From: Effrenium voratum
Lineage: Eukaryota > Sar > Dinophyceae > Suessiales > Symbiodiniaceae
Length of the DNA: 64,000 nt
Direction: 5' to 3'
Assembly: GCA_963377175.1 (NCBI GenBank)
Contig: CAUJNA010003816.1
Location: forward strand, 507,001 to 571,000
Shown in pieces: positions 2,233 through 54,723 of the stretch (position 1 is its first letter; each line of letters begins with the position of its first letter). The translations under genes and the position numbers were made by a program. The notes below the pieces were generated by a model. It had not been told where the DNA came from, searched no databases, and was given only the letters and a program-made list of their open reading frames with translations.

Positions 2233-4361
2233 GGTAGGTGTCTGTGCGTGTGCTTTTGGTGTAGTGTGTGTGCTTTGTCTGTGTTGTTTGCTTTGTCTGT
2301 GTTGTTTGCGTTTTATTTTTATTTTTATCTTTTTGTGTTTTTTGTTGTGTGTGTGTGGCTGTGTCTGTGTGCTTGGAGTGGTCCGAAATGGCAACTAGAA
2401 GGACAACTCCCAGTTTTGCGGGTCCAAAACGCGTTTTCGCCATATACCCATCTCTCATCTGGAATGTCCCCGGCTTTGAGATGAGACTTGGGGTGTGGCA
2501 GAGATTAGGCACCTATTTGGGATGTCCAGCGAGGGCCTGGTGATTTGTTGTTGGTAAGATTCCTTTTTGATTTTTTATTTTTATTTTATTTTTTTTTGGG
2601 GGGGGGGCGGGGTTTGGGGTGCGGGGGTGCTTTTAAGTGGCAGGGCCGTAACCTTGCTGTTAAACCCCTCCTGTACATTAAGCGGCTGTGGATAGCCTTG
2701 GTCTGCGGAGACATGTTAAACGAGTGGGCCAAGTATGGGAAGCGGTCGAAGTTGGCCGGCAGTCTGTCTGGTCAAGGAGATGCTTCAGAATCTAATGTAA
2801 CCTGGGGTACACTAAATATTGCTCTGGCTCATACCATCTCATATGATTTGTTCCTTGCGTGAGATTCGGCAAGGATTCTGTCATAGGGGCCCTCTCACTC
2901 ATGGCATCTGCAGTCAAAGGTTAGCATTTGACGCGGTCAAAGAGGTCAAAGGTTTGCTGCCGGGGGGGCGGGGCCAATCGCCTTTGCCGAAAAAAAACAA
3001 CAACACAGACAATGGCCACGAAGCTGCCACATATTCTCCTTCCAAGCAAGGTCTCCGTTGCCACAGAACATTCATGGCTGGCCGGCTTTGGTGAAAGGCC
3101 GAAAATACAGTGACTCAACTTGGTTGCCTTGACCCTTCAACAAAAGCTTGTCTGCCAACTCAACATGTAAGATGGAGGCCGCCGGAATTTTAGAAATCTA
3201 TTTGAAGTGACACAAATGTCGTCGCTTCAATTCGACCAACCCACCCCGCCGATGACGTGGAGGGACCACGCAAGACGAACTGCAAGTTTTGACCCAGGTT
3301 CACTGGCCCGGAACGCTTGCTTCCACTTACTTAAGTTTACCGAGAAAAAGTAAAATAGAATCCGGTAGTGATAGCTTCCCTTTAACACCAACAGGGGAAA
3401 ATAACAACACATTAACTTTAGCAAAGGGAAGCTTGGGTTGATGGAAACATGCTACCTGGGTTTGACGCGTTCCACTTAACTCCTTCGGGATGAGCGGCTC
3501 TGCTCGGCGTCATGTGGGTTCAGTGCGTTTCCATTCGAAACCACCCAAAGAAGGGTACCCTCCAAAAAATACACTCCCCAGCTCGAACCGATACCAAATT
3601 AAAGCCACGCAGTCTGCGGCACAATTATGTCAATGAAGTTGGAATACCAAACGCGTTGAACATGCCTCTCCATTCAAAACAACACAACAAACACACAGCC
3701 CAACGGAAACCACAAAACAAAAAAGGACACAAACTCGAAACGAAACACAAACTCGAGGAGAGAGAAGCCTCCAGCTCCAGCTAACTGGCCAAGCCTGTGA
3801 GCTCTCGTTGAGGTGTGGTTTGCTTTTCTGGTTTGCCACTTGTGGAAAACTGGCCCAGGGAAATGAAAGCATCTCTCAGCTTCATCTCGCTTGCGCTTGG
3901 ACGCTCTTTGTATAGAGCAACCCGCAAGCGCGATCGCCGCTTGGGCTTTTTTTTTCTGACGGGAAGGTATCTAACCTCTGTCCGTTTTCTGATCCCCTGC
4001 TAAAAAGAAAAGAAAAACACTTGCGGGTGAAACGGAGACCCCCACCAAACCCTAAAGCGCGACACAAAGCCTAAGGAGCCGAACCGGGAACCGAACCGAA
4101 ATCTGGTATGCACGTAGGTACGCCACGATCCCAGGTCCTGCAGAAGAAACAAAATCGGACGGAGGCCGATTTTCCCCAGCCTGACCTATGGGGAGCCAAG
4201 AATCATGTGCGGTGGTCCATTTTTCTGAACTCCTAGAAAGAAAACAACTAAAAAAACAACAGCTCACACAATGGGTGTGTCTTGTTTTTGAAGGGAACCC
4301 TTTCTGGCTAGTTTCAAAGGCGAACTCAAAGGAAAGCCACCATTTTGAGAGCGGTTCCAAA

Positions 4362-5663: not shown

Positions 5664-8600
5664 CTGCTCCACCTATGGCTCGGGTGGCTGGCGGGCAGCG
5701 GGGCAAGGCGGGGGGCTCGGGCCCGCAGCCTCCCCGCGCCCTTTTTCGACATGAGCCAGGGAATCCGGATCACTGCCTGGGAAACTTGATTGATCCGGGG
5801 TTGGCATGACAGACATAGTCAACCCATGAGGCAAGTCCGCATGAAAGCTGCTTCCCTCGCTGTGTTCGGGTGACTTTTTTCCTAAAACCCTCTACCAGAA
5901 CCAGGGGTTCAAATCCCCCCGCCAACAAACCAACTAAGGGTTACCTGATTGGTGGACACCAATCGGGTCTATGTTGCACCTGTTGGATATTTTGGCTGCC
6001 ACATAGTCCATGGCACGATCTCTCAATATGTCCTACGGTTTTCCGTTGGTTCTCCTTTAAAGCCACCTCAACAAGCGCAAATCACTCGACCAAACAGGAG
6101 AAATGGGTTTGTTTCAAAAGCAGGAACCAACCAAAACTTGTGCTTTCTTTTTGGTGTCACCTGTGCGACTTCGATTGTTTCCTTGATAGCTTCCTTCCGC
6201 CTCCGGCGCGTGGCGTTTCAGGCGGAAGCGCCCATTCTCGCCCCAGGAAGAGCCCCAAGAGTTCTGCAGCAGCCAGTACTTCCTCAGTTGGCAACCAGGA
6301 AGGGATTTATACTGTGGATGGACCAAATCCTGGTGCAGGGTTGTGTGTAGGGCTTGGTCTGAAGGAGTCCCTCTTTAGTTCATGGGCTTCATGTCCTAAG
6401 AATATGAACCACTTGCCCAAAGGAGCTGGACATACAAGGCGCTCATCTGTGGGGGAAGGACAAGGAAAAACAAGTTGGGAACTTCAATAGCCGGTCGACT
6501 CGCTTGCAACTGAAGATCTCGAGCTGGGGAAACGCGGGAGCCCGTGTGTGGCAGGGAAAGCCGGCCATGCTGCACATGTCAAAAAGCGCGAGATGTGTTT
6601 GCATCTGTTGGAACAATCGCTTCCCATCATTCCTGTGCGCCCGCGCCAGGTTTGACTGCTTGAAGCCTCTTGCTTGGCCCAGGGTGTTGTCGAGGAATGA
6701 ACGCCTGCTAGGCACTGCTGGGCACTGCACACCTGCTGGGCACTGCACACACGCCTGCCAAACGACAAGCAGACCAGCTCAAGAGCATCTGCCCAGCGCT
6801 GCGCACACACGCCTGCTAAATGATAAGCAAACCTGCTCAAGCGCACCCTCTCAGCTGATAAGCACACCAGCTGCAGAGTATCCGCTCAGCACTGCACACG
6901 CCTGCCAAATGACAAGAGCCGCCGCGCCTTCCAAACGATAAGATTACCCCATCAAGAGCTTCTCCTCAGTTCTGTGCATGCCGACTGCTGCGCTGGCTTC
7001 TTGACGGACCGGCTTGGGGCACACAAAAAGGAACCCCGGCACCCGCAAAAAAGAAGGTCAGGAAGAAACAGCCAAGAACCGAGGTACAAGCGCACACACA
7101 AACACACACTGCATTTTGCGGTATCTTGTGCTTCTGGGACGTCTTGCGGGGAGCTGGAAACAGGATCGCACGCCTAATTACTGGTGGAAATATGCATTAA
7201 GCATGCAGCGATTATCTCTACTTTTGCGGTAAGGTGAAAAACATGTTAACTAGCAACTGGGCTGTCCTCAGATCCCCCACTAAAGGTTTAACTCTCAGTG
7301 GGTTAAATGAAACTCCAACCACTAAACACTAAACAGCTAAAAAGCTAAGGAACCGGATGGCTGGGAGCCACCAAGTAGTAAACAACTTTCCTTCGAGGGC
7401 TTTGAATGGGCCGTACCGGACACCGCCTCGCCCTTTGGGAGCCGAGCTGCATCGCCCGGTCGCCCCGAATCGTGGGATCCTCCCCGTAGCCGATGAGGAC
7501 CACCGAGTGGCCGATCACCGCATTCCTGCTTTAAAACGGCGCAGGGACCGTCGTGTTTTTGGGTGCTGTGCTTTTTGTTGATGTCCTTTTCCGCTTGTTG
7601 CTGGGGGAGATCCTGCTTTGTGTTTTTGCGTGTTCTGCTTTTTTTTTAATTTTTTCCCCCGTGTTGCTTTGGAGTGGGGAGCGGCTTTTGTTCCTGGACC
7701 TTCCAACGTACCTGCAATTTCTGCTTTCCTAGTCTATACTAGTCAATCGGTTGCTTTTTGGATTTCGTACTTTTTTTGGCTTGTCCTCTTTTTTGGACCT
7801 CGAGCAGTTTTTGGAGGCATGCGGGCTGTCAGGTCCTGATACCGCAAACGAGCGCAAATTTGCTCAGTTCTCAGTTGCAAATATCAACCTCAGGCACTTC
7901 ATTGCTCGGGCAGAAATTGAAGCATCGGGCACAAATCGTGCGGAGCAGAACAACTGCGAGCACAGAAGGTATCAATGGAAGGTCCAGGTTGGGGTTGACC
8001 CACCCGGGCTCGTGGTTTGGAGTTTGGTCGGTCTCCAAGGGTTCAAAGGGGTTTGCTGTTGGGGATATCACCCGGTCGCTTTGCTGATTCTTCTTTGCGA
8101 GTGTGGGGGGAAGGGGGGGCAACTTTCTAGCTGTACCTTCAAAAACTATCCTTGTCTGAATCAAGCCTCAACCACGAATAAAACCGTTGGTTGGCGTCAA
8201 CGCTCCTTGAGACATGTGACATGTCCCTTTTCGGTGGGACAAAAGTTGGGCCGCTGCTGTGAGTGTAATCACAGGGAAAGTCTTTACACCGAGCGGGGAA
8301 GAGGTCGGCCGTAGATCCAGTTGGATTGGATCAGAATCTCGCTCGGTCAGACTTCTCGCGACAAGAGTCCTCGATTTCCCGGTCAAAAGGGCTGTGCTTC
8401 CCGATCTCCCGATCGCAACGGGGTTTCGAATGGCAACCCTGAAAAGAGAAACACAAAGATGTCTCAAGATACCGGAGCGCCCCAAGCCAGCTGAATCCCT
8501 CTCCCTTTCAAACGCCAGCCAAACTGGGATCCCCTCAAAAAGATCGACACACCCTCTTGAACCCAACTGTCCCATGTCTTTGTTCAAGCCCTCCCCAGTT

Positions 8601-11166: not shown

Positions 11167-14100
11167 ACCGGCTGTCTTGAGCCAGGCGAGCTGCCGTCCA
11201 GTCCGTGGAGATGGCCACAGCCACAGGGCCCTTCTCCGCCAGCGCGCGCATCAAAACCTCCCCGCGGTTCGCCCTCAGCCGCTCCCAGCCCACCTGGGCC
11301 GAATCCATCCGCCATGGCACCGAGAAAAGTCGACCATCCCAGCAGTTGACTCCATTTCCCTTCTTTTCAAGCATCGTTCTTTGCAACAACCAGCCGTTTC
11401 CCTGGGTTTCTGATGGTTTTCTAGAAAGAAGGATTCCTGGAAAGAATGAGGATGTGGATGGGCAAACTCCTCTTAGGCACCGTTCAGGCACCCTTGAATG
11501 ATCAATGATTCCCCTGGTACCGACCAACAACGTGGGGAAAGCCGTGGTTTCTTGGGTGCATTTCTGGATTTCGCCACCATCCACTGTATTTCTTATCAGC
11601 CCAGGTATCGGGACCCAGCCCCGATTCGATATGCCGCAACTTGTCGAGAACCTATCTGGGCAGAGATGATCATAGCTTCCGGCTGGGGAAAAACGCAAAA
11701 GGCCTGAAAGGTGATCACCTTTTGGGACCTGTTCAAGTGGGAAAAAGGGGGAAAACCGAAAGGTTGCAAGGTCGATTCGCTTTGAACTGAGACCCAGGAA
11801 TAGGAGGTGACCACCTTGAGGAAAACCCAAAGGTGACAAGGGCTTTTGGAACGGAGTGGTTCTATCATCTTGGTACTCGTTCCACCATTGACCTAGGTTT
11901 TCCAGGTGGTATTTGGTATCTTGTCTAAACAGATACCAGAACCAGCGGGTTCTTTGGGGCTCACTGCGCGACGGACACCAAGGAAACCAGAGGTTCCAAA
12001 CGGTTGATAGGCACCCGGGATTAATAACCACGGGGTGTTTTATTTTGGAGTGGATCCCTATCAATCAGCAAGCTTCATTGACCTAGGGTCAACATGTCAT
12101 CCTTTTTGGATGGCAGCCCTTTCATCCACGGCAAACCTAGCTTGAGAGCATAGAGGTAGAACTAACCAGATTGTTTTTGAACTTGCCAAACAGGGATGCT
12201 GCGAACGTGGCAAAACACTGGGAAGAACTGATGATACCCCCAGACTGGCCCAAACTATTTGGATATTGGCGCTAAGGCTTAAGCCCCTACACTCAGGGGG
12301 GTCCTTGGCGTCTTCGCGGATTTAAGGTCAAAGAGCACAACCGAAAAGTGAAACGCCAGAAGTGGCCAGTCCGTTTAAACACATGTTTAACACTTGGGGG
12401 TTGATCAAGCTGCCCTTTGGCCCCCAAATGACTAAGGGTAACTTTTCTCATTTAGTGGGAAGTATCATCTTTTTAGTAGTTTCCCCCAATGGTCATCTCA
12501 TGTAAAGGACCTTTTGATCAACACCCACCTGCTTAAACAACCTTCTTTAAGCTTTGCTTTGAGCACCCGGACCCGGGGAGTAGTTTTTCACACATTCTGC
12601 GGCCTGAAGTGCTGTTTCTTGCTTTGCCACCAAAGTAATTCTGACCCCACATATTCATTTTCAGGGACCTAGTCTCTAGCTTGGCCCAACCAGGCACAAA
12701 GCTATATTATTCAAATAGTTGGTCAACCTTACAAAATAATATTGAAGGAGATCCTAGGTAGGGTCCTAATCCACATTTAAACAATAACTGCAAAAAAGGG
12801 ATCGACCACCAAAGAACCTACATCATGAGTTCGTTGTCACCTGAGCTCACCAAAAAACATTCCGGCTCCATTGGAATGAACCGAAATTGGTGGAAGCAAA
12901 GGGAAGCTGAATAGTCAGCTTCTCAGAGTGGTGAACATCAACTTCCTTAGAGGCCAATCCTATTTCCTGTCTTCAAGCGCCCCCAAATGGGTGCTGCTGG
13001 CTTGGAGTTTGTGGGCGGGGCCGTATCTCCTTTGGTTTAAAGAGGATCTGGAGGTTCAAGTCCCCAAACCACCAATCCAAAGCAACAATTTATGGTTACT
13101 TGGGTGACCCCCAAATGGGTTCTAACTATCAAATTGGTTCCTTTCGGATGAGAACTGACCTATTGTCCTGTGGTGTAAGCAATCAGAACAAACTGTTTGA
13201 TAGAACCCATAAACACAGTCGCGCTGGTATTTGTATCAGAACAGGCCCTGTTCTGCATAACATGGGCAAATGCATGCCATGATCATGACTGCCTTGTGTC
13301 TCAAAGTAATGGAGAATTAAGCCCCGACAAAATTGATCCGGACGCCCGCTAAAATAGGACACCCCAGTATTAATCACAAAGGGGTGTGTGAATCCGTTTC
13401 CACATTGATGTTAACATTCTATATAATCCGTTTAATCTGAGGTTTGACCTTCTGATGGGTGGGAGGGGGGAAGGCTTATTAATCCGACTTTAATACCTAA
13501 GCATCATTCCAGGGTTTCTCAGGTGGTGCGAACTGGATTTCGAAACCATGCACAGCTTACATTTGCTTTAAGCCCCTGGAAAAAATGATAATATGTCCAG
13601 AAGTGAGATCGATTCCCTTCAAAATCAACAGGAGAAAATACAAACATGTGCTCTTCAGCAAATGGAAGTTTTGACCTCCCTCTCGAAACAAACCAGGAGC
13701 TGGTTGTTGACACGTTTTGCCCTGTGAAACCCTGAAATGATTCGATTCCCCTGCATGTTTTTCAACAAGCCGTGGTTTCCCACGGTTTCTGAACGGTGGT
13801 GCGAAATGGACTTCGCAACCATCCACAGCTTACATTTGCTTGAGCTCCTGGAAAAAAAGGAGACAACACGTCCTGTAGTGAATAGTTTCTTAGGCGGTGC
13901 GAAATGGATGTCGTCCACAGTATCGCCCTCGTGGAATTTTCTGTTCAACATAAATGACGTAGGTGGCCTTTTGGAAACATAGATGGGTTTCCCTGGTAAA
14001 TGGAAGAAACCCCACCTAAACCAGTGTGACCCTTCTATTTGTAGTCAAACTAAAAAAGGACACCCTGCTAAAAGTTGCTTTCTGCTCCCCTGCTAAAAGT

Positions 14101-17100
14101 TTGACTTTTAGCGATTTAATGGAAAACCCATTAGTTGGCAAAAAGTTAAAGTCCTAACATCCGAGCAAAATGCACCAAGGTGGAATCTTCTCTTCAAGCG
14201 TCCATGCCAAAGCTCCTGGCCGGACTGTCTGCCGCCGCAGCCCGCATGCCCGGCATCCACTCGTGGGGACTAGGCTCGTGGGGGTCCACGATAGCCTTGC
14301 CAGCGCCGCACTCCGCGACATCCTCCTTCTCACCTGCCATGGGTCTGTCCATGAATAGAGTTAGGCCTACTTATAGAATGTATATTTTGTTGCTTGCTTC
14401 ACTTGGAGTCACTGGAAAAATGTAAAATGTATCCTTAGTCCACTCCAGCGTCTTTTCTTGCTGGTGCGAGAGACGCAGGGAATGAGAAATGGAATGACCC
14501 TATGAACCATCCAACTGGTGGTTTCCTTTAAGGGAATTCCCAGGTTCATTCCCTGCGACCCTTACAAACCATCCGCGATTTGCTGTCCTTGAAGGGAATC
14601 GCAAGGTTTATTCCCTGCTGAGCACCAGCAAGTTCTTTTGAGTGCACCCTGCTTGGGGTTTAACTTACATCAAACCAGAAGGACGCCACCACTTTGGGAG
14701 GGCTCCCCTATTTTGAGACAAACCCATATCAGCACAAAACATGACGTCCATTTGTTCGAGTGCCCTTCACGAAAACGATGTATTTTGCAATGGTGATAGA
14801 TTCCCTTAAAACCAACAGAGGAAACTAAGAGAGATTCTTAAGCAAATGTAAGATGAAAGCCACCAAATAATACACTCACTTCCTAAATGGGCCAAACAAA
14901 GTCCAAAACTTTCGGTTGCCACTAAAATGGTCTTCCCAAAAGTTTAAAGTCCAGAACTCAGGGAGTGAGTACACACCACCCAAAGACAACCTCCCTCGCC
15001 ACCTATGCCGTTGACCAGGATGTTCTGCAGCGCCAGTTCCGGAGTGGAGCCCCCGCAGCCCCCAGTCCCCCCGCAGTTGAATGGGTCCTGGCAGCGAATT
15101 GCCTCTCAAACGAAGGGACGAAACCCCAAAAAGTGGGGTGGTGGTATGGGTGTGTCTCAAAATCACACTCAAACTTGGCGGCTCTCCTTTCAGTTCCCTT
15201 TAAACCAACCCCCAAAACGGTACCCGCAACAAGACAGACCCATATTCAAGCGTTGGAAGCTCGCAACTCCATAAGCATTGCTTGCCAGTGGAGTCCGCAT
15301 GGGACTCTGGCTTTTGTGGTTCCGTGAAAGTTTTCAGCCAGGGATCACATCAAATCAGGTGACCTGAAAACAATGCGACATCAAAACACATGAAACATGG
15401 AAACAAATAAGAAATGTTGATGTTCCGGAAAGCTGAGAAACATGAAACCATGGAAAAGCAGCAAAAACGTATTGCTGGAACATGGAGAAGCGTGCAGAAA
15501 CACACCGCCTGAGGAAAACAACATGGCGAAAAAAACACGTTTTTTAGCATGCAGATTTCAGAAACGTGTGTCCGCAATGCCTGAGGAAAACGACATGGCT
15601 GTGGCTCAAAAAACCGGTACTAAAATGGAACCCTGGTAAGTGGAAACATGGACCAAAACCTGCGTACCCCTCCTGGTTAGTTTTGAGCCACACCCACATG
15701 AACACACTTGATAGCCAAAGCAACGGCAACTCAGGGATCGGCTCCTCCGTACACTGCGTCACAGACTCCACGCTCACCGTACCTGGGCATCAGCCGGGTC
15801 CCCGGTCAATCGAAGCAAATCCCTTGTTTCCTTTGGGACAAATTCGGCGCATTCAAAGCAATATGTATTGCCCCCTGTTCAACCTCGGATCCCCCGCTAA
15901 AAGTTTAAGTTTTGCTGGGTTAAATGAAAATCCAACCACGAAACACTTCCAAACAAACCCCAGAAGCCACCAACCCAACATACCCACATTGACTTCAAGC
16001 GGTTTTCGCAGCACCGCTAAACACAGGCAAAACCCCAGCAAGACACTGAACAGCAACATGGCGCTGGCAAAACCCGGGGGAAAAAAGAAAAAAGAAAAAA
16101 ACACGATGCAGCGAGCACGAGAAGTTCTTGGCCCAAAGGATCTGGAGCTACCCTTCGGACCCGGGCAGAACAAATTCAAACCTCCGATGCTAAACCCATG
16201 AAACCACAATGTCTAGGTCCAGATTTGAGAGGTTCGAATAAGGGGGCACCCGTTTTTTTTGCTGTCTATTTTAGTAGGCCCCTTGGTGTTGAAACCCGTT
16301 TTGCCCAAGCCCTTTCGGTGTGATGACGAAGCCAATCCAAAACCAAGAGGTCACCTCGAATAAAGTTCGACCTGTACGTCCTGTTCTCCCCAAGAGCTGA
16401 AAGCTATGGGGTCGATAGGCCCAGATATGCTCTGGGGTGGTTTGGGCAGCTTGGGAGGGTTCAAAAGGAGGGGTTCAAAAGGAGCTGTTGGGGGTACCAC
16501 CTTGTTTCTTTCGGGGACTTCCGAACAACTTCTCAGGGGATTTGTGCCGCGCTCTGCAGGTTTGAGGCAAAAAACAAGCTGAGACAAAAAACAACAAAAA
16601 AGACATGGGATCCCATGGGTCAACACCGTTTTGGGATCCCATTTTGGGCTAGGTGAATTCACCACCCATTTTAGGCTTCCTATTTTAGCGGCGATTGAAT
16701 CGGATGTTCACTGGGGGCTAACCGATTTGGGTTTTGACCCATCGCCGCATGGCTGAGAACATGGAAAAGATCCGGTCCACAAGGGCACCCCCGACGAAAA
16801 TTCGTGGCTTCGCTACGAAAGGACATGGGACCCGCTGAAAACCATTGGGGGAGGTTGCATTCAGTGGCCGATTCAATGGTCTCTAGCACTTTAAGAACAT
16901 GGGCGCCGGAAGACAAGTTGCCTTCAAACAAAAATGCAAGTATTCAAGATTGCTTGTTCTTTTTTTGCAACACGAAAGGGTTCGCCCAAAGGCAACTTCC
17001 CCGCACTCGGTCAGCCTGGTGGAAAAGGAACCCGTGTGTAGTGGAGAGGCCAACAAACAATGGATTTGGAGGGTGGACTCCACTGAACAACTGCGTGCCA

Positions 17101-20100
17101 GGCATTTAGGAACTCCCTTCGATGGGCAAAGTAGGGGCCCTTTCCGATGCCTCCAATATCCCCCCTAGCTTGAGGCAGAGGGGGGACCCGGGCCCCCAAT
17201 TCTATTTATCCAGTATTCCCCATGGGGAACGTGGAATCGCAAATGGAGATCTGCCGGGGTCACCCCATCCCCCAATTCCAGTTTTAGAGGGGGGATCCTC
17301 CAATCATGGAAGCTGGGAACCGCCTACTGGGCGGGCCGTTTGCAGATCCACTGCTCAAAGTCAATCACTTTTTGTGGGTTAAATTTGGAAATCCAACCAC
17401 TAAACTAACCAGAAAGCTAAAAAGCTAAAAAGCTGAAAAGCTAAAAAGCTAGGGAACCGGATGGCTGCGAACCAAGTTACGATTCGCTCCGAAGTGGAGC
17501 TCGATGTGAAGCTCCATCAAAGTGGAAGTGGCAGCCGCCCAGCAGTTGGAACACCTGGCTCCGTCCAACAAAACGCCTCGCCGTCTTTGCTTGCTGGGGG
17601 TTCCTTCAAAGAGATATTACAAAAATACGTTGTAAGATTCAGTAGGTAACGTAGAGTACCTGTAAACCACCCATTTCAAGAGTAATCTGCTTTTGAGGGA
17701 CCCTCTTATCGGGCTCATCTTAGATTGCAGGGGAGGTCAAGAAGTGAAAGGTTACCGCGGTGAAAAGATTCACCCTCCCGTCACTAAACTCGAGTCGGAC
17801 GCAACAGGTCGTTGGAGACCAACCCTTCTCTTCCAAGACGAAGACCAAGGTGCGGAATCCACTGGGTTCAGTTCATGTTCCCTTTGCGCTGACAAATGCC
17901 CTCCCGAGAACTTCCACCAAACAAAGGAAACATGGGGCCGCTGAACAACTGCAATTTCCTTGCGTCTCTCAAAAACATCTTCCCCCCCAACCCCCCCAAT
18001 AAAAAAACAAACACAAACTCACGCACACACACACAAGAAATACACGGAGCCCCCCTCTATACCACCTGTCCCGGACTGCGCGGACGGCATCCGACGGCGC
18101 TCGGCGCCTCTGGTTCCTCACCTTCCCGGGCTGCGCGGCCCACAGATGGCCCCAGCTCACCTCCGCCGGAAGCTCCCGGTGCCTGAAACGCGTCGGGCGA
18201 TCGCTGGGAGAAGGGCCATTTGCGCAGGAGGTCCATGGAAAAAGTCAATCAATATGTCCGGTAGTGATAAACTCCCTTGAAAACCAACAAGGGAAAGTAT
18301 GAAAAACAGATTCTTATATAAGCAAATGGGAGGATACTGTAGGCAGGGAATGAGAACTGGAATGACCCCGAGATAAAACATCTCCGATTTGGTATCCTTG
18401 AAGGGAACATGGCGCGACTTGGACGAGCAACTTAGGGGTGCAGGAAAACCAACCGCATCGGCATTTTCGTGGGTTCTTGGCTCACAACATATTGAAGTGT
18501 TTTGGACTCCCCCTTTCGAGGGCGCGATGTTCGGCTCTGCTTGCTGCCAGCAGGGCACTGGAGACGTGCCGCAAATCTGGGCCTACGCACAGAGACTCCG
18601 AACCCTGCGGTGTTCCTGGCCCAACCCTGGGGTCCCGAAACCATTTTCCCCTCCCGCAAACTAGCAGGGAACCTGACAGGCGGTCCTTGAAAAGGAACAT
18701 GGTCTTCCACCCGCCCGAACGTCAGGTTCCATGTTGATTGGGAGGGCAAAATGGTGTTGGAGAAGTGCAAAAGGTGGTGGGGCCCCTGATCTTCAGGCTT
18801 GGGCAAGATGCATTGCAACCACCGGGGTGCGGTTGCCTTCAAAGCCAAGCCGCTTTAGAAGGATTCAACAAAAACGGCTCGGCCCAACCCTGTTGGCAGC
18901 TGGCTGTGGGTAGCTGGTTCTGCTGACCCGGTTTTTCCTGGCCCGACAAACTCACTGGCTGAGTGGATGGCCCAAAAAAAGTTCGAACTTCATATTTACC
19001 ACTGAAATGGTCCAAACCCAAAAAGTTTAAAGTTCATGAACTCAGGAAGTGAGTTTCCTGGCCCGACCATGCTTCAAGGCACGTGGTCACCGAGGCGCCG
19101 CGACCGCTCCAGGAAGGAGCCCGATGGCGAGGGCGCCATCGGCGCTAGAGCTCCGAGACCCAAGCGGCGGTAACCGTGGAGTTGGGCCACCTCCTGGCCG
19201 ACTCCCCCCGAAACATCTCACTCATGGCCCAAGAGTAGATGGTCCACCAAGGAAGTGATACTTTAGTGGCACACCCCCCCCAAAAAGGTCCAAACCTTTT
19301 GTTTACCTCTAAAATGATCTTCACAAAGAGCTTCAAGTCCAAGAACTTGGGAAGTGCGATACTCAACAGTGTCAGAGCGCAACAACTGCTTTTGGACACT
19401 ACAAACGGGGATCTGGGACATGAGGAAAAACTAGGTGGGGGTGGTATGGAGTTCATACTGTGATGGACTTAAATGGATTGAACGATGTATGTCAATGGGA
19501 TTCTAGCGGGATCCACTTTGAAGTTGTAGCTAATATTGGCGTTGGTGTCTTCTAAAGCCATTTCTGAGATGGGACCCTGGATTCACAAAGATAAAATAAA
19601 ACATCGTATGGAAAGGTCGGGAGTGAGCTTGATACCCTCCTGCCCACTAACATGGAACCCCCGAAAACATCCTTAAGGAAAATAATCAGGACGGGATTAG
19701 AAAATCTCAAAATGGTTAAAAGCCAAATCAAGACGAACTTGCGTGGTCCCTTGGCGGTAGGCAGTGGAGTGTCTTTAGGGACTCGTGGACAACTGGTTCT
19801 GGACAACTGGTTCTAAGAAGAACATGCACCATCCTCCTGGGTCCCTTAAAGTGAATGTTTTAGCGGCTCTGAAACTATTTTCAGGACCCAGCTATTTCCT
19901 CTTGCTAACCAATTTGCGAGGTTCGTCTTGTCATTGGGTCACGAAAAGGTGATATTGAAACCAACCCAACGAGGGGACAGAGGGAACCCATGCGAGTCAT
20001 AATCAAAACCTGGTATTAAAATGGCCTACCCAAAGCCACGAAAGGAATTGCAAAGGCGGCTGCACCCATTTATAGGTGGGATAATCCTTTACTAGCCTTC

Positions 20101-22666
20101 ATCTACTCGGGTTTTGAGCACATGGCTCATGTCCCCACCATAGGTGTCCAAATAGATGGCCCTGGTGGATGATGAAACCACCAGGTAAACCAGGCATCGC
20201 CCTCCATTTTTCCCGCAAAACCAGCAAGGACACAACCAAGGTCCCCACGTCTTTCTTCGCTTCGCCTCGGCCGTGCGGTCCGCCAAAAAGCTCACCGCCG
20301 CCCTCCAGGGCGAAGGCTTCGCGTTCTGGCGCTCCACGGCGCGCAGAGTCTCCGCGAAGAGGCGCCGGCGCCGCAGGAACTCTGAGCTGCCGGCCTGCGA
20401 CGGCGAGCGCTCGGCGAGTGAGCCACGGGCGCAAAACCCGGGAGATTGAGGCTTTGTAAGAGATACTCCCAAGCATAAAAATAGCTGGAATTCGCCTTCA
20501 TACTTCTTGAAGCATGGTTCAGGGTAGACCATTTTGATACCGGGTTTTGAGTATGACTCAAGTGGTTCCGAAGAGATGTGGGAATGTGGGAGTGAACCTA
20601 GTGCTTCCCTTAAAGGAAACCACCAGTTGAAAGGTTTATAGGGGTCATTCCTTCATTCCCAGCTGAGCACCAGCAAGACTACCTTTGAACTGGGGAATGT
20701 GGTACATGCCAATGGCTTTCCGAGCTCCGTCTTTGAGGTATGGCCGCTTCTAAAGGAATTGGAGCACAATTCAACCTGGGTATAGTGATCCGCTTGAATT
20801 TCCCCCTTCAGGGACCCTGCCTCCCGCCGCCCAACTCTGTGGTGCGGGAAACTCCGGGGACCAATACCCAGCTCCCGCCCAAGGGTAAGGCTTTAGAGAT
20901 CGAAGGCCTCGGCTCAAGCGGTGAGAAGCCTTTTCAGGCCTGAGAGCCACCATGGGATTCGGGTGCCCTTAAAACGTAAAAGGAAACAAAGGGACACCAA
21001 AAGAACAATACAAACCCATTTTGCAACGTCTTAGAAAAGCAAAGGATACATATTGGGGGCAAAACTTGGAACACCATATTTGGAGACGGCCTCATATTTG
21101 GGTTTCCAAGCTCGAGTTTGGATCTATAGGTCCTCATTTCGCTGGTCTTCTCAAAATTCGGGTAATGAAGCCATACACAAGTCCCCCCCTTCAGGAGGGC
21201 CCTTCTTGGCAAGAACGGCTTGGTAAGGCTGAATGGGGTTTCATAATTTCCGTGGATGGACAGAATCCTGCACCAGTTGGTAGGTTTCTCCCATTTGTCA
21301 TAGGGCTCCAGCCACCCGCCATCCCTGAATTCTCCCTGCCCCGGTGCAGCTCGTCGCGACATTTCAAACCACGGCCTGGACGCTCTAAAGCTCAAAGAAA
21401 GGCCCCCGGATGTTGCGGGAGGCCGGGGGGGAGGGGGCACCCCAAACAACTTGTGGCTTTCATGTTTGAACTGCCGGTTGGTTCTTCCTTAAAAGGGCAC
21501 CGAGCCGGAGACAAGCAAAAAGCCACACACACAGATCTGTAAGGGGCCACGCTTCTTTTAAGGTACCCAGATCCATCCGGGCCAAGATGCGCAACAATGT
21601 GGAAGAGTGACTGCAAAACACAGACAATCCACATCTCAATTGCCCCTAGAGAACCCAGAAAAGAACAGGTGATCACCTTCTAGGGCACGAAAAACTGACC
21701 GGCCGAACCGAACCATTACCTTGTGGATTGCCCTTCGAATTACTAAGAACTTGCGCAACCCAGGTTTCTTTTTGGTTTCCTGCAAACCCAGAAAAGTGCA
21801 ACGAAAAAAAACATGAACCGCCCAAATGTCCCCCCCCCCCTCCCGTGCCCCCGCGTCCGCTTTGTCCGACCTCGTAGCTGCGGTGGAATTTCTGCACAAA
21901 GCGCTGAAAGGCTTCCGCCTCCGAGCTGGACACTGCAGAGACTGAGAGCTCCTAGGATGCGAAATGGGGGGCCGACGGGATTCGCCCGGAATTGTCCATG
22001 CTCCTAGATCGAAAACCGGTAAGGAAGCATCAAGAGATGGCTTTGAGAAAGTTAGGAATGTGTCCTGGCCATATGACGTCCTAACCTCAGTCCTGTAAGC
22101 ACAAGCAGCTATGGCTCTCTTTTTCTACTCCTAGCTGGTGGCTGTCAGAATATACAAGAAGAGCCTTGAGCCCAGATGTAGAAGAAGATCAAGGTCGAAG
22201 CAAACAGAGCACGAAAACAGACACATGCTTCTTTTGATTCTCTGCGCTAAGTTATCCTCCGCCACGCACATTTCCAACGGACAACCGTGAGCGGTCACTT
22301 GCGGATCACGACGGTGTGAAACCCCGACCCGCATGTTCAAACTTCCAAGAGCAAAGCCAAAGATGGCGACAGCCCTCCAGAAAGATAGTTGAAATTTCAA
22401 GGGAGGGAAGCACATTGTTCGAACAGAAGGGCAGGGGGGAATATCGTTAAAGACATATGGTTAAGCTTAAACATACAATTTCAAATCGACCCTCAAAACC
22501 AAAATGGGCAAACAGATCGCTCCAAAAGGCGAGCAAAGTTGAATCCAACCATGTACACAACACAAGCGCTGCCATTGGCCAGCCGGGCTGCGTCTGCCTC
22601 GGCGCTGTTCCGCGCCGCTAGGGCGAAAGGTAGCAGACACAGCGCGGCGCTGAAAGATGGAACCAT
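5433..22666 (-). CDS. papain-like (C1A) cysteine peptidase gene, 14 exons, secreted preproenzyme
   Basis: A cathepsin L/papain-type endopeptidase, expected to act in the secretory or lysosomal/vacuolar route. Translating the GC-rich islands in descending coordinate order gives the family parts in order: hydrophobic signal peptide, I29 propeptide (FQRFVQKFHRSYE, then ERQNAKPSPWRAAVSFLADRT), LPAEVSW at the mature N-terminus, CSNCWAAAT with the nucleophile Cys, CGGTGGCGGSTPELA, GPVAVAIS, YGSGIFDGC, GHSVVLIGYGED with the catalytic His, YWLLQNSWGSSWGE with the catalytic Asn, and a C-terminal CGTCGIL segment that I recall from dinoflagellate cathepsins. Inferred phases fit at every junction, giving about 430 codons to the stop at 5433. 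It lies downstream of and in the same direction as the PP2C gene. Family assignment is firm. The exact exon edges, the start codon and the last ~40 residues are inference. Confidence 0.9.
6201..6278 (-). CDS. C1A peptidase exon 13: catalytic asparagine
   Basis: 26 codons, YWLLQNSWGSSWGENGRFRL and then KRHAPE. This is the YWL-x-x-NSWG-x-x-WGE-x-G-x-x-R motif with the catalytic Asn. The donor is read as GAG|GCGGAA, phase 0. One arm of an M7 repeat ends about 30 bp before the acceptor. Confidence 0.93.
6703..6945. repeat. ~70 bp degenerate tandem repeat
   Basis: Units containing CACACGCCTGCCAAACGAC, AAGCAGACCAGCTCAAG and CAGCGCTG recur three to four times with drift. In the protease intron between exons 12 and 13. 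Confidence 0.7.
7255..7373 (-). repeat. M3 introner-like repeat
   Basis: Minus-strand order: CTTGGTGGCTCCCAGCC, ATCCGGTT, AGCTTTTTAGC, AGTGGTTGG, a TTTAACC palindrome, then GGGGGATCTGAGGACAGCCCAG. It starts about 12 bp inside the donor of protease exon 12 and ends in a CAG that looks like an acceptor. Confidence 0.85.
7387..7525 (-). CDS. C1A peptidase exon 12: catalytic histidine
   Basis: After AAGCAG it encodes NAVIGHSVVLIGYGEDP, where the His of GHSVVLIGYG is catalytic. The GC-rich open frame continues with an Arg-rich stretch to RRK and a GT donor at 7386, phase 0, giving K-YWLLQNSWG with exon 13. A shorter form ending at 7462 with a GA donor is also in phase and closer to the usual family spacing. 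An M3 repeat begins about 12 bp past the longer donor. Confidence 0.9.
8977..9081. repeat. M1 repeat (TIR CTAGGTCCTCCAGTAG)
   Basis: Begins CTAGGTCCTCCAGTAG and ends CTACTGGGGGATCTAG, an almost perfect 16-bp terminal inverted repeat. The core carries AGGTTAGAATAAGGG, CTATTTTAGTA and an AAAGGGTGAAAGG-like tract shared by all M1 copies. About 105 bp, non-coding, MITE-like. Confidence 0.85.
10116..10153 (-). CDS. C1A peptidase exon 11: 38-bp micro-exon YGSGIFDGC
   Basis: After CATCCAG it encodes IYGSGIFDGCSS, the Y-x-x-G-I-F/Y-x-x-C motif ahead of the catalytic His. The GA donor AG|GAGCTG, phase 2, restores frame with exon 12. Confidence 0.88.
10500..10985. repeat. C-rich telomere-like minisatellite
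   Basis: Degenerate CCCCTAAACCAA and CCCAAAACC units, with AACACTACCCC variants, over ~480 bp. It resembles the complement of TTTAGGG but is irregular. No gene in it. Confidence 0.7.
11001..11117. repeat. M1 repeat copy
   Basis: Left end CTAGGTCCTCCAGTAG intact, core intact, right end TTGCTGGGGGACC before the poly-C run. It sits in the intron just downstream (minus strand) of protease exon 10. Confidence 0.82.
11121..11164. repeat. poly-C tract
   Basis: A run of C (broken once or twice at the left) ending at the edge of the exon 10 donor region; poly-G on the coding strand. Confidence 0.9.
11192..11293 (-). CDS. C1A peptidase exon 10: GPVAVAIS strand
   Basis: 34 codons after GGCCCAG: VGWERLRANRGEVLMRALAE and then KGPVAVAISTDWTA. 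This is the G-Y-x-x-L-x-x-N...L-M-x-A-L-A-x-x-GPV-x-V-x-I block. The frame stays open by chance far into both flanks, giving a spurious 336-codon frame. The likely donor is GCA|GCTCGC; a poly-C run (plus strand) and an M1 copy follow in the intron. Confidence 0.92.
12060..13005. other. intronic stretch, nothing recognised
   Basis: Within the protease intron between exons 9 and 10. No coding frame, no clear M-family copy (a fragment of M8 starts at about 13008). Unique or strongly decayed repeat. Confidence 0.5.
13559..13665. repeat. M5 repeat (CATTTGCTTAAGC ends)
   Basis: ACATTTGCTTTAAGCCCCTGG, then ATATGTCCAGAAGTGAGATCG, AACAGGAGAAAATA and a CAGCAAATGG right end: inverted ends and a diagnostic core. 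Confidence 0.72.
14278..14333 (-). CDS. C1A peptidase exon 9: Cys-containing linker
   Basis: After ATGGCAG it reads EKEDVAECGAGKAIVDPH, fitting the C-x(n)-K-A-x-I segment between the CGG loop and the GPVAV strand. Phase 1 in and phase 0 out (GA donor) agree with the neighbours. Assigned by position and phase as much as by sequence. Confidence 0.65.
14457..14632. repeat. M4 repeat (TIR CTTGCTGGTGC)
   Basis: CTTGCTGGTGCGAGAGACG with GGGAATGA at the left; TTCCCTGCTGAGCACCAGCAAG-type right end. The internal AACTGGTGGTTTCCTTTAAG is shared with the 44.2 kb copy. Confidence 0.8.
14871..14974. repeat. M6 repeat (TIR ACTCACTTCCTGAG-like)
   Basis: TACACTCACTTCCTAAATGG at the left and CCAGAACTCAGGGAGTGAGT at the right, inverted. 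The core ACTAAAATGGTCTTCCC with AAAGTTTAAAGTCC is shared by the family. Lies just past the donor of protease exon 8. Confidence 0.82.
15003..15087 (-). CDS. C1A peptidase exon 8: CGG loop
   Basis: After TGCCAG it encodes DPFNCGGTGGCGGSTPELAL and then QNILVNGI. The CGG-G-C-G-G-x-x-x-x-A signature is the conserved loop of C1A enzymes. Two GT donors in phase 1 are possible (15003, or 12 bp further, at 14991). An M6 repeat starts about 30 bp past the first. Confidence 0.92.
15594..15700. repeat. M2 repeat copy
   Basis: CATGGCTGTGGCTCAAAA ... TTTTGAGCCACACCCACATG: inverted ends including the flanking CATG. Lies in the intron just after protease exon 7. Confidence 0.8.
15745..15782 (-). CDS. C1A peptidase exon 7: 38-bp micro-exon
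   Basis: Encodes TVSVESVTQCTE, the L-S-x-Q-x-L-x-x-C strand that precedes the CGG loop. It is only 38 bp. The proposed donor is GA (GAG|GAGCCG), phase 0. Joined to exon 8 it reads QCTE-DPFNCGG, as the family expects. Confidence 0.82.
16211..16282. repeat. M1 repeat, truncated
   Basis: GTCTAGGTCCAG then GAGGTTCGAATAAGGGGGCACCC and CTATTTTAGTAGG; the right half is missing. Confidence 0.7.
16613..16752. repeat. M2 repeat copy
   Basis: CCATGGGTCAACACCG ... GGTTTTGACCCATCGCCG; internal AAAATGGG/GAATTCACCACCC block shared with the 33.9 kb copy in the opposite direction. Confidence 0.8.
17340..17475 (-). repeat. M3 introner-like repeat
   Basis: Same structure as the 7.3 kb copy, with AGCTTTTTAGC repeated several times. 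The minus-strand left end CTTGGTTCGCAGCCATCCGG is 5 bp past the donor GTAAC of protease exon 6. Confidence 0.82.
17481..17554 (-). CDS. C1A peptidase exon 6: catalytic cysteine
   Basis: After GAGCCAG it encodes CSNCWAAATSTLMELHIEL and then HFGANR. The second Cys of CSNCW is in the nucleophile position of the papain CGSCWA motif and is followed by the usual helix. The GT donor C|GTAACT, phase 1, joins exon 7 to read NR-TVSVESV. Five bases into the intron the M3 repeat begins. Confidence 0.92.
18066..18182 (-). CDS. C1A peptidase exon 5: mature N-terminus
   Basis: Encodes HRELPAEVSWGHLWAAQPGK and then VRNQ, matching the LP-x-x-x-D/SW start of mature C1A enzymes and the V-x-x-Q containing the oxyanion-hole Gln. 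Two donors restore frame with exon 6. A GC donor at 18108 joins VRNQ-R to CSNCW. A GT donor at 18066 keeps the GC-rich tail and joins AVRDR to CSNCW. The latter extent is given; which is used is undecided. Confidence 0.8.
18250..18332. repeat. M5 repeat copy
   Basis: AATATGTCCGGTAGTGATA, AACAAGGGAAAGTATG and TATAAGCAAATGG; the left TIR is missing. Confidence 0.7.
18947..19055. repeat. M6 repeat copy, downstream of protease exon 4
   Basis: AAACTCACTGGCTGAGTGG ... CATGAACTCAGGAAGTGAGT; core CACTGAAATGGTCC, AAAAGTTTAAAGTTC. Confidence 0.82.
19105..19193 (-). CDS. C1A peptidase exon 4: end of propeptide and linker
   Basis: Starts after GGCCAG and encodes EVAQLHGYRRLGLG and then a Pro/Ser-rich linker ending FLER. 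It continues the D-x-T-x-E-E...GYR pattern of exon 3. The GT donor (CG|GTCGCG, phase 2) gives FLE-R-HRELPAEVSW with exon 5. M6 repeat copies lie just outside both ends. Confidence 0.8.
19207..19357. repeat. M6 repeat copy, upstream of protease exon 4
   Basis: CGAAACATCTCACTCATGG left half with an internal insertion, CTAAAATGATCTTCAC core and CCAAGAACTTGGGAAGTG right end. Confidence 0.72.
19991..20130. repeat. M9 repeat (TIR GAGTCATAATCAAAACC)
   Basis: GAGTCATAATCAAAACCTGG, then TATTAAAATGG and a TGGGATAATCC block, then CTCGGGTTTTGAGCACATGG. Inverted ends. Confidence 0.8.
20266..20394 (-). CDS. C1A peptidase exon 3: I29 propeptide, ERFNIN-like helix
   Basis: 43 codons in phase 0, preceded by TCGCAG. 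The reading RRRRLFAETLRAVERQN is the ERFNIN-type helix and WRAAVSFLADRTAE is the usual N-x-F-x-D-like strand ending in the D-x-T-x-E motif. The donor is read as GAG|GCGAAG, a GC donor. Confidence 0.9.
20575..20677. repeat. M4 repeat copy, left end degraded
   Basis: AAAGGAAACCACCAGTTG core (inverse of the M4 core) and CATTCCCAGCTGAGCACCAG at the right. Confidence 0.72.
21871..21932 (-). CDS. C1A peptidase exon 2: start of I29 inhibitor propeptide
   Basis: Preceded by CTCTGCAG. It encodes SSSEAEAFQRFVQKFHRSYE, matching the opening helix of the I29 cathepsin propeptide (F-x-x-F-x-x-K-x-x-x-x-Y). The donor is GAG|GTCGGA, phase 0. Confidence 0.85.
22570..22666 (-). CDS. C1A peptidase exon 1: start codon and signal peptide
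   Basis: The frame from the ATG at 22666 reads MVPSFSAALCLLPFALA and then ARNSAEADAARLANG. This is a short N-region, a hydrophobic core and an A-x-A-like cleavage site, a typical secretory signal. The proposed donor is GC after GGCA, phase 1, which restores frame with exon 2. A TTTCAG just after the ATG could instead be an acceptor, with the Met further upstream. Confidence 0.6.
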
Positions 22667-26283: not shown

Positions 26284-26408
26284 CTTAACTGGGCTGTCCT
26301 CAGATCCCCCGCAAAGAGTTCAACGTTTAGTGGGTTGAATGAAAATCCAACCACCCAACACTAAGAAGCTAAAAATGCTAAGCAACCGGATGGCTGGAAG
26401 CCACCAAG
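26284..26408 (-). repeat. M3 introner-like repeat
   Basis: Minus-strand start CTTGGTGGCTTCCAGCC, 6 bp after a GTTAAC donor candidate beyond the PP2C VVSNVPDI exon; ends GGGGGATCTGAGGACAGCCC. Confidence 0.85.
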
Positions 26409-38500: not shown

Positions 38501-41500
38501 ATCTGGAATGCGCACCAGATACCCCAATTCCAGCAAATGAAGTAGGACCCGGATTAACAGGAAACCCTTGCCACTTGAGAGAACTACTTAGAGAAACACC
38601 CATGCATAGGTGTGCTTTTTCGGTTTGTTTGGGAAAAAATAAATGGCTGCTGGTTCAAATGGGGGTTTTTATAAACCATGTGCCATCAAATGTTCCAGAG
38701 TACGCCTCGAGTGGCGGTTGTAAAGGGGAACCAAAACGAGAACTAGCATATATACATATAATTATTTATACATATAACTTTGGGGGGTCCCCAGGAATTC
38801 AAAACAATGTTCCGTCCAAACTTCTACTACATCCAAACAGCCATTAGTCTTCAGTCCAGCTGCCTATGGGGCCACACGTGGGCCCAACGCGGGCCATTAG
38901 CAGCATTATCACCCGCATTCGCATTCTAGATGCAAGCAATGAGAAGTACTTTATCACTGCCGGGTTCTTATTCTCTCGGCAGCAATTATCAGCCTCAGCG
39001 AGGGGGATTCGATAGCAATTCTTGTGATATTCAATGAGCTAAACAATTTGCCAAGGCGCCCAAATTAAACCGCTAGGGGAGTCAGGTCTTGAGATGGTCG
39101 GGTTATCAAATTTGTTCAGTACATGTCGGTGCACGCCACTCCAAAACCATATTTGGATCTGCTTAAAGTCTGAGTCGACCAAGAACTGGACGCTGATGTC
39201 TGTTGTGGCACCAAACTCTTTTCTTCCATTTGCTTAAGCCGCCTGGAAACAATGATAACATATTTCCAGTAGTGATAGATTCGCTTGGAAACCAACAAGA
39301 GTAGATTCCCTTTGAAACCAACAAGAGTAGATCCCTTTTGCATTCAACAAGAGAAAATAAAACATATTCATGTCCAGTAGAAAACACACATGGACGCACA
39401 TGGACTTAGCAACATATTCCAAGAGAAAACACACATGGACGCACGCAGATGGACTTAGCAACACACGTGGACGCCCTTTTGGGCCCACGCCAAAAAAAAG
39501 GACGAAAAGAGAAGATCGGTTGCTTTCTGCACCCCTGCTAAAAGTTTAACTTTTAGTTTAATGGAAAACAAGTCAGTTGGCAAAAAGTTAAAGTCCTAAC
39601 ATCCCGAAAGGCAAAATGCACCAAAGGCTTGGTTGCTGTTGACCCGTCTGCAAAATAGATTTTCCATTGGACACACAAAAAGTCAATTGCACCAAAGATC
39701 TTCTGAAACGACGGACGTTGAGCCCTTGGGGGCCCCCGGCCACCTGCCGCCCCCCGTGGCCGTCGTAGACCGCGAAGAAGGCGCTGCGCTGGGTGCCCCC
39801 GAACTCGCGCGCGCCGCGCGCGAGAGCCGCCGGGAGCGGCGCGCGGCTCTCAACGCGCGGAATGGAAAGGACCACGTGGGTAGGGGTGTCTTTTTGCCAC
39901 CCTTTGCGAGAAAATTGGCGACCCCCTCAACAAGGAATCCTTCACTACGAGGGGGTCGATCAATGTCTCACAAAAGGTGGCAAAAAGACCCCCTGCACAT
40001 GGGTATGTCTCGTCAAAAAAAAGGAATTGGACCACCTGACAAATGGGCGGGTTCCTTTTGGTGTCCCCTTAAACCAACTTGAAAGCGATCTCAACAAAAC
40101 CTCACCTTCTCCTTGCTGAATGTTCTCAATTTGCGGACGCATCTCTCAACGTCCTCACTTCCCACAGAGCCCAAGCCCTGACAACTGGATGTTCCCATGC
40201 CTGGTCAATGGTCTGGCCTCATCTTGTAGAGGGACCCAGTTGTGCGGTTGGTTGAAAGATAAAAGCAAAGGAAAACCACCAGTTGGGGGTTCCCCTAAGA
40301 AAAGACACACTGCGTGGCACTCCATATTCGATGGGACCATTCATGCAGCTGGATTGGCCCAAACGAGTCCAAACTTTTCCCACTTGGCACCCGAAACTAA
40401 AATCCAACTCAGAAAGTGGGAGCGCTATGGTTGGAGCAAACCTCCAGCTTCATTAGGAATAATTTGATGGACATTTCGGTGAGGATTCATGCCCACCAAC
40501 CAGTCGAGGTGCTTCCCTGTTAAAACTCACAGCCGACCACTGGTAAAGGTAAAAGAGAACTCCCCCCCATTTCTGATTTGCCTGTTGCTACAGTGGGTTG
40601 CCTGGGATCCTTTTGAGATTGTGTCGTGGCCACTTGACTGGCTGATTTCCCCCCACAAAACAACCAGCCCTTCTGAACGCTGCACATGATTGATCCACTG
40701 TTTAAACAGCGTCCTGCTTCCTTTTGATTTTCATATGGGTTTGGTTTGTGACCCACCGTTGATTGATATTCAATCAACAAACCTCCTTTTGATGTGCCTC
40801 AAGAGGCCCAAGTCGGTTTCAAAGGATGCCAAATCAGTTTCTACCAGGGAACTGATTCGGGAAAGCTTGTCCCAAATGTTCAGTGGCCCATGTTTTTGTG
40901 CCTTTTTAGGGACACCAAACGGAAAATCATCATTTGGGGGGGTGCCCGAACAAAAACCACCCCCATTGGTTGGCAGCTGTTGTTCAAGACGCAACAACTC
41001 ACAGGAAAAAAGAGAGAATGGAGCAACCCAATGAGACGTGGGTTGTCGAGACAATTTTCATTGTGAGATCCCTCCTCCCGTGCCTGGTCAACGAAGACAA
41101 AGCCGTCTTCCATTTCAGGCCGGCGTCCTCTTGCAGGCTGCGTCAAACCCTCTGAAACTAGCAGGAAACAAACTTGCTGTTTTTGGTGGGTGCGGGGGTA
41201 TGCTAGCAAACAGATGCTGGCCAGTCAGGAAAGGGCTTGATTTCCTCATGTAGTGAGGGTAGTGAGAGCAAAACAACTCTTGGCTGACTTAGTGAGGGGT
41301 TCATTTCCTCTGGTTCAGTGCGGTTCCACAAGAGCGAGGGCGACAAACAAAGCGAAAGAGTTGGACATTGGGCGCAGGACACCCCTCCTGGTTTAGCAGC
41401 GTTGCTCCGTATCTCCTGAACATGTCCTCTTTTAATAGCACCCCACCCCGTTGATCTAAGTGTACAATCACAGCGTGCCACACGTCGTACAGAAAATATA

Positions 41501-47160: not shown

Positions 47161-47295
47161 GAGTCGTAATCAAAGCCTGGTATTAAAATGGTTTACCCAG
47201 AATCATGTAAAGAGTTAAAACATGCGGCTGCACTGATTTATGGTTGGGATTATCCCTTGCTCATCTTTATCCACCCGGGTTTTGATTGTGGCTCA
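47161..47295. repeat. M9 repeat copy
   Basis: GAGTCGTAATCAAAGCCTGG ... CCGGGTTTTGATTGTGGC; the interior matches the 20.0 kb copy. Confidence 0.82.
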
Positions 47296-48106: not shown

Positions 48107-48229
48107 AAAACTGGGCTGCTCTCAGATCCCCTGCTAAAAGCTTAACTTTTAGTGGCTTAAATGGAAACCCAACCACTAAACACTAAAAGGCTAAAAAGCT
48201 ACGGAACCGGATGGCTGGGAGCCACCAAG
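48107..48229 (-). repeat. M3 introner-like repeat
   Basis: Minus-strand start CTTGGTGGCTCCCAGCC directly after the GTTTT donor of the 48.3 kb exon; ends GGGGATCTGAGAGCAGCCCAG. Confidence 0.85.
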
Positions 48230-50489: not shown

Positions 50490-50611
50490 GAGGTCTTCCA
50501 GCAGAGAGGTTAGAATAAGGGCACCCTTTCTTCTTTGGTCTATTTAGTAGGGGAACCGAATCTCCCCCCAAAAAAGAAACCGTAAAAGGGCACTACTGAA
50601 AAAAACCTAGG
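50490..50611. repeat. M1 repeat copy
   Basis: GAGGTCTTCCAGCAG at the left, the AGAGAGGTTAGAATAAGGG core, and CACTACTGAAAAAAACCTAG at the right. Confidence 0.82.
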
Positions 50612-50881
50612 CCCAGTTTTGACCCTCTCGTCTTACAGCTTAGCACAGCCTCGCACAGCCTCGCTCGCCATCTCAGCGCTTTGATGTGGGTAGCCCAGTG
50701 CCTCCAGCTACAACTAAACCATCCATGATAGAACCTCGAGGTAAGCATAGCGATGGGTCACCTCATACCACAGATTGAGCACATTTCTCCATAAGGTAGC
50801 TTGGTTTATAATACCCAAGCCCATTCCAATTGATCAGCCCCTATGTCTCTAACTGGAAGCACTAGGACCACCCCACGTGAC

Positions 50882-52403: not shown

Positions 52404-52514
52404 AGGTTGTTTTAGTAGAGAGGTTAGAGTAAGGGTACCCTTTTTTCTGTAGTCTATTTTAGTGGGGGAACCCTCCCCCAACAAAGGGTAGAAGGGCACT
52501 ACTGGGGGACCTAG
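52404..52514. repeat. M1 repeat copy, degenerate left end
   Basis: Left end reads TTAGGTTGTTTTAGTAG; core and the right end CACTACTGGGGGACCTAG are intact. Confidence 0.8.
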
Positions 52515-52740
52515 CCAATGTCCCTCCTTGCAGACAGCTCCAGACTTCTAGCCTTGGGAGGTTTGCTTCAGAAATGTGCCGTGCCATCCCCTTGAAGCTT
52601 GCAAACTGGTCTGATGTAGAACTTCTCAAAGACATTCTGGTCGCTGGGTTTTGTTGAACGTGAAAGGGGGGAAGGGGCGGGAGGGACAATTTAATTACCC
52701 TTCCCCGATTTACTGGCCATATTCCCTATCAGCACGTTGT

Positions 52741-53043: not shown

Positions 53044-53301
53044 CTGAGAGCTTGGGTTCTCGTCTTCAGTTTAAAAAGACAACAAAAAATGAGGGTCTCC
53101 TTTGACACGCACGTATATAACCATAGTTTTGGGCGGTGCTCGTCAAAGGGAGTTCCTGACCCGTTTTTCTTGCGTAAAGTTCTCCATCCTGGACGCACCT
53201 GGTTGGGGTTGGGCTCAAGAATTGAGACAAACCCGCATTGGGAACACACATGAATCCGAAAAACTTCGGAAGCGGATCTTTGGATTCACAGCATGTGTTG
53301 C

Positions 53302-54711: not shown

Positions 54712-54723
54712 ACTTCTATATTC

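Follow-up and report, generated by a model that had tools for sequence, protein, structure and literature searches.

The window analysed here is a 64,000-nucleotide stretch of the genome of Effrenium voratum, a dinoflagellate of the Symbiodiniaceae (contig CAUJNA010003816.1, positions 507,001 to 571,000), the minus strand of which carries a gene for a papain-type protease (Pfam PF00112; PDB dipeptidyl peptidase 1). Four homologues of this protease, 455-491 residues in length and taken from public sequence sets (two are EukProt transcripts), map piecewise to that strand from 20,391 to 5,541; 138 residues of the protease exons, used as a protein query, returned nothing at E 0.001. The homologous stretch of exon 6 lies at 17481..17556 (RCSNCWAAATSTLMELHIELHFGAN + C, minus strand) and that of exon 7 at 15748..15782 (GTACGGTGAGC..., minus strand, read as (R)TVSVESVTQCT); both extents are those of the homology, and the true 5' end of exon 6 and 3' end of exon 7 may differ. 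The spacing from CxNCWAAAT to (L/V)TxCT is 36 residues in 4/4 homologues, gapless as judged by eye. The missing second half of this stretch was sought from exon 6 as far as the following homologous exon (15,090); its best match was at 15,777, and joining AATC (17,481) to GTACGGTGAGC (15,782) gives ...HFGANRTVSVESVTQCT, with 36 residues; exons 6 and 7 joined read CSNCWAAATSTLMELHIELHFGANRTVSVESVTQCT, likewise of 36 residues. Since this join conserves both phase and spacing, intron 6 is placed at 17,480-15,783 (15783..17480, minus strand), a GT-AG intron of 1,698 bp that starts GTAA-CTTGG and ends GATGCCCAG, and homology together with the reading frame defines the junction as AATC/GTAA-CTTGG ... 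CCCAG/GTAC.

The CTTGG at the start of this intron is the beginning of a copy of a short repeat, here called M3, which occupies 17327..17476 on the minus strand (CTTGG...CGCCCAG, 150 bp) and is degenerate, with 81% identity to its best other match in the genome. The 4-mer GTAA before it (17477..17480, minus strand) stands at the position of the family's target duplication, and the exon homology supports reading the GT of this 4-mer, which abuts M3, as the donor of intron 6. The preliminary description had put the element 5 bp inside the exon 6 donor; the donor itself, at GAATC/GTAA-CTTGG, is upheld, and the offset is corrected to 4. The 4-mer after this copy is TAGG, without a match to GTAA. 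With 1,698 bp of intron against 150 bp of M3, the acceptor lies far beyond the element, and there exon 7 starts with GTAC, equal to GTAA at 3/4 positions, after a CCCAG that resembles an M3 end. A second, degenerate M3 is found within the intron near its 3' end (15883..15974, minus strand; model positions 45-108 match, the start being placed by eye).

M3 occurs at four places in the window, or eight if degenerate relatives are included, and all are on the minus strand, which bears out the earlier remark that the four copies share one orientation. The other three copies are in protease intron 12 (7257..7375, minus strand), near an exon of a PP2C-type phosphatase (26289..26408, minus strand, with an exact TTAA duplication), and at 48.2 kb (48111..48229, minus strand, with an exact TTTT duplication). 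A weak and degenerate M3 match lies at 3982..4083 on the minus strand. Two minus-strand relatives, M3b, one at 14075..14151 and one at 39518..39612, near a PP2C-like DGHGG reading frame, have the 3' half in common with M3 and a different start (CTTGGTGCATTTTGC or CTTTGGTGCATTTTGC); the copy at 39.5 kb has GCAACC on either side, beside that frame. The window also contains a near-perfect palindrome of 4.5 kb (53298-57806), with arms of up to 516 nt and internal tandem repeats, in which the four longest arm pairs are 97-99% complementary.

All four window copies had been proposed to sit at a donor, and of these only the one at exon 6 is supported. In protease exon 12 the likely acceptor CTGAG/GAAG requires a phase-2 donor, and by eye a GT in this phase occurs just once, at 7,423, 48 nt before M3, giving the join QRARRKYWLLQNSWG; this copy has no target duplication. 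The PP2C exon scores slightly below the Pfam cut-off (E 5e-4), and its alignment to a solved phosphatase, which is weak (E 0.022), ends at TDVTMQ, after which a GT is seen by eye at ~26,452, 44 nt before M3; the GT that adjoins M3 consists of a G and the first T of the TTAA duplication. Both readings consider GT donors, GC and GA donors also being possible. At 48.2 kb the element is flanked by TTTT, and no Pfam family scored above the cut-off for the exon there.

M3 is an element of 117 bp (model positions) that runs from CTTGG to CAGCCCAG, its typical 3' end. In the genome compared (1.156 Gb in 3,699 contigs) its exact 23-base start CTTGGTGGCTCCCAGCCATCCGG occurs 647 + 679 = 1,326 times. Two whole-genome DNA searches, in which 40 of 822 and 40 of 3,263 candidates were scored, gave identities of 74-96% among the scored matches, with the query's own place excluded. 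Mutually similar copies are therefore dispersed over many places in the genome, as the definition of an introner asks. No A-rich tail was seen in the aligned copies, the termini CTTGGTGGCTCCCAG and CTGGGCTGCCCTCAG are by eye alike only with gaps, and a scan of viral contigs with the M3 pattern gave 0 matches.

The 4-mers flanking M3 on its two sides are identical in 28/66 distinct copies, mostly taken from similarity searches with two window copies, against a mean of 1.8 and a maximum of 7 in 2,000 shuffles; at least three of four positions match in 43/66 copies (shuffle mean 8.8). In an earlier set an exact 4-bp duplication was present in 16/29 copies at offset 0 and in no more than 1 at any other offset tried. 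A duplication of GTNNN, 5 bp long, as the window copies had suggested, was ruled out by the larger sample, which gives 4 bp. A locus-specific 4-bp duplication thus abuts both ends of the element, as in DNA transposons with 4-bp targets. Where the base at -7 is A or T, the first 100 copies listed have an A+T content of 74-76% at each position of the duplication.

The general rule drawn from the window, that M3 begins 5-6 bp after a GT, has to be given up. GT is found equally often at -5 and at -4 among 200 listed copies, 21 times each; split by the base at -7, the respective counts are 14 and 8 in the 100 copies having A or T there, and 7 and 13 in the 100 having C or G. Over all 1,326 exact-start copies GT is at -4 in 145 (10.9%), where 9.7% is predicted from the base composition at these places in the 200 listed copies, so that GT at the target, an excess of which is typical of introners without defining them, is hardly above composition. 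GC and GA, which are also used as donors by dinoflagellates according to the part of PMC11453091 consulted, are at -4 in 1 and 5, respectively, of the listed 100 whose base at -7 is A or T. This lack of a fixed GT phase across the genome counts against the general donor claim by the test that the preliminary description had itself laid down.

We also looked at the flanks of 70 loci, 30 in which GT precedes the element by four bases and 40 in which it follows directly, a sample that includes repeated flanks (L132 and L093; L091 and L098). An assignable 3' copy of the target is present in 17 of the first 30 loci with GT at -4. A crude coding score based on base composition, applied to the joined flanks, did not separate 32 copies with a GT duplication from 42 others (p 0.22-0.41), and in an earlier form of the score no copy with GT at both ends ranked top. 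Because only ~11% of the copies have GT at that place, and because the coding score does not separate GT from non-GT copies, the majority of M3 copies, with or without GT, are probably not themselves introns; the majority probably also lie outside coding sequence.

One locus, L094, which lies on another contig than the window, has the arrangement that the preliminary description had proposed to look for, an intron consisting of M3 alone. Its layout is ...CACAGCTTTCAT / GTCA-M3-CAG / GTCAAGTGC..., and the predicted GT-AG intron is GTCA plus 107 bp, 111 bp in total, with the M3 end GGGCAGCCCAG. Unspliced, the reading frame stops inside M3. When the 111 bases are removed, a RING-H2 domain spans the joint (Pfam zf-RING_2 2.2e-12; PDB ZNRF3 3.5e-11), and all 148 residues of the product are matched, at 100% identity, by a public Effrenium voratum protein, a gene model (P0001) of 174 residues, the first 26 of which are outside the compared stretch. 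A homologue of 36% identity from the MMETSP transcript set aligns across the joint with no gap there. A single copy of M3 is thus well supported, from gene model and homology, as an exactly phased intron on its own, and L094 is the sole copy for which such support is good. The splice signals at this locus appear to be of two origins, the 3' one from M3 and the 5' one from the duplicated target, so that of the earlier suggestion that the element supplies both, the acceptor at the M3 3' end is supported here, the donor belongs to the target duplication, and the acceptors proposed in the window find no support. Three further loci, L114, L131, and, from an earlier sample, L054, look by eye as if they had coding sequence on both sides; a Pfam search of the products of L114 and L054 found no domain, and the L114 peptide matched only its own locus in the genome, with no empty paralogous site. 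L037 was set aside as an empty-site case, its coding status being doubtful. At about 1305-1335 of that locus there is a 29/31-base near copy of the surroundings of the M3 insertion, ~180 bases upstream and without M3, which may be an empty duplicate.

The uniform orientation seen in the window recurs in the copies sampled across the genome. With the window excluded, M3 neighbours at most 200 kb apart are on the same strand in 39/41 pairs, and with the window kept and pairs closer than 2 kb dropped, in 43/45; the underlying set is 270 pooled places among the matches listed, chosen by similarity or contig order. The 5' flanks of neighbouring copies differ by eye, except for one inverted pair on C50, and neighbouring copies are therefore mostly separate insertions and not one tandem block. 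Strand switches between neighbouring copies on a contig were of the form + then - (converging) in 11/12 cases; diverging switches are rare, perhaps owing to contigs breaking there.

A second family, GGTACCCTTATTCTAACCTCTCTACTGGAGGACCT, behaves in the same way. It has 2,509 exact matches in the genome and, on the minus strand of the window, six segments (8977-9039, 11001-11082, 34407-34534, 50491-50621, 52414-52516, and 63047-63101) with 10 direct and 0 inverted matches; neighbours are on the same strand in 53/55 cases among the first 100 of the 2,509 matches, and M3 has the strand of the nearest listed copy of this family within 200 kb in 20/21 cases. A control family that is present in both orientations in the window (2 direct and 2 inverted matches; 371 genome matches) is on the same strand in 2/5 pairs within 200 kb and 4/11 within 400 kb among the first 100 of its 371 matches, and agrees with M3 or the second family in 18/28 of the matches listed (p 0.18), the control being small in both comparisons. 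Other repeat families have only direct matches in the window and are candidates for the same lock; they lie at 1758-1799, 19994-20117, 47161-47295, and 63437-63569; at 3361, 13556, 18252, and 39223; at 25985, 46518, and 60647; and at 9334, 14887, and 18967.

In the flanks of 65 M3 loci, taken in the sense of the element, the AT skew is -0.059 (negative in 56/65) and the GC skew +0.037 (positive in 51/65), close to the values for the gene-sense strand of the window (AT -0.063, GC +0.037), and in 47/65 loci it is the M3-sense strand that has the higher of the two best coding scores. On the strength of these skews and the coding score, the sense of M3 is very probably the sense of transcription at most places, with the reservation that other locked repeats in the flanks may contribute to the skew. 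We put forward, as a tentative and still rather doubtful proposal, that the insertion of M3, and of one or more other families, has a constant polarity relative to transcription, so that nearly all copies lie in sense across multi-hundred-kilobase gene blocks. No description of a strand or orientation bias of dinoflagellate repeats was found among titles and abstract openings, with subscription journals outside this scope.

The reading that we prefer, with a probability of roughly 0.8, sees in M3 a MITE-like element, a DNA transposon that is short and non-autonomous and is able to act as an introner. L094 and the exon 6 donor that opens the 4-mer before M3 both support the core guess of the preliminary description, namely an introner family. 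M3, presumably moved by a DNA transposase, would insert at a 4-bp target and duplicate it; where it lands in sense within an exon and the target begins with GT, the donor GT would come from the 5' target copy and the acceptor CAG from the end of M3, and splicing would then remove one target copy together with M3 and restore the mRNA exactly. It is unlikely that M3 is just an ordinary MITE of AT-rich 4-bp targets, the copies at splice sites being chance and L094 a rare tolerated accident. The A+T content of the duplications, the lack of a fixed GT offset and of a coding excess at the GT copies, and the support for donor placement at just one of the four window copies are all consistent with such an element, but the M3 at L094 ends in a usable acceptor and takes its donor from the duplicated target, the exon 6 donor opens the very 4-mer abutting M3, and a locked orientation is not what a plain MITE predicts. 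Still less probable is a SINE-like retroposon, or spread of intron RNA through reverse splicing; either would account for the sense orientation (39/41 pairs, in agreement with the gene strand asymmetry) but not for a constant, locus-specific 4-bp duplication or for aligned copies that lack an A-rich tail. No such target duplication would be expected from reverse splicing.

For intron 6 itself, it is quite conceivable, if somewhat doubtful, that the intron is older than the element, M3 having simply inserted close to a donor already in place, as the length of 1,698 bp, with the acceptor far past M3, and the difference between the 3' flank TAGG and GTAA would suggest. Against such a late arrival, the 4-mer adjoining M3 on its 5' side opens with the donor GT itself, and the CCCAG/GTAC at the start of exon 7 is what a GTAC or GTAA target would give; a chance arrival at exactly that spot seems unlikely. 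We infer that an M3-type insertion gave rise to intron 6 and that further insertions later brought it to 1.7 kb.

Introners of several kinds have been described from related organisms, and the accounts cited here are compared by the parts of each source consulted. The closest in description is family 1 of Symbiodinium microadriaticum, from the same algal family and with the same architecture, the comparison being one of descriptions and not of sequences; introners of that species have 4-bp duplications, carry the 3' splice site, and obtain the 5' splice site from the duplication (Gozashti et al. 2022, PMC9860276). The published example of family 1 is 115 bp long against 117 bp for M3, and it has clear terminal inverted repeats, whereas those of M3 are at best imperfect (PMC9860276). 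Roy et al. 2023 (Curr Biol), as summarized in PMC11453091, report introners in five dinoflagellate genomes, including that of Polarella glacialis; these are recently active, with several families per genome, and make introns, as M3 can, and E. voratum is not named in that summary passage. For E. voratum itself, introner elements are reported in 5% of genes (PMC11114475), and section 14 of that source describes no M3-like family. Introner counts in related papers rely on inverted repeats of 8-20 nt together with direct repeats of 3-5 nt (PMC10666404), and the imperfect ends of M3 may escape such a definition. The introner elements of Amoebophrya resemble M3 as dinoflagellate intronic repeats with 3-5 nt direct repeats across the exon/intron boundaries, but they are defined as non-canonical (not GT-AG) and have inverted repeats of 8-20 nt, while the M3 intron of L094 is GT-AG (PMC7789003). 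As far as can be told from these descriptions, M3 is a new family of a kind of introner already known.

With M3, a free-living relative of the coral symbionts has a concrete introner family, one copy of which is exactly excised according to a published protein. Cut-and-paste transposition as usually pictured gives no reason to expect a strand lock in copies most of which are not introns. If the polarity proposed above is real, insertion, or survival, would be coupled to the transcribed strand; arrival in sense only would then account for the ready conversion of such elements into introns. The lock turns the way in which intron-forming elements come to lie in sense into a testable question, and the orientation of M3 may serve as an annotation-free marker of the direction of transcription in dinoflagellate contigs.
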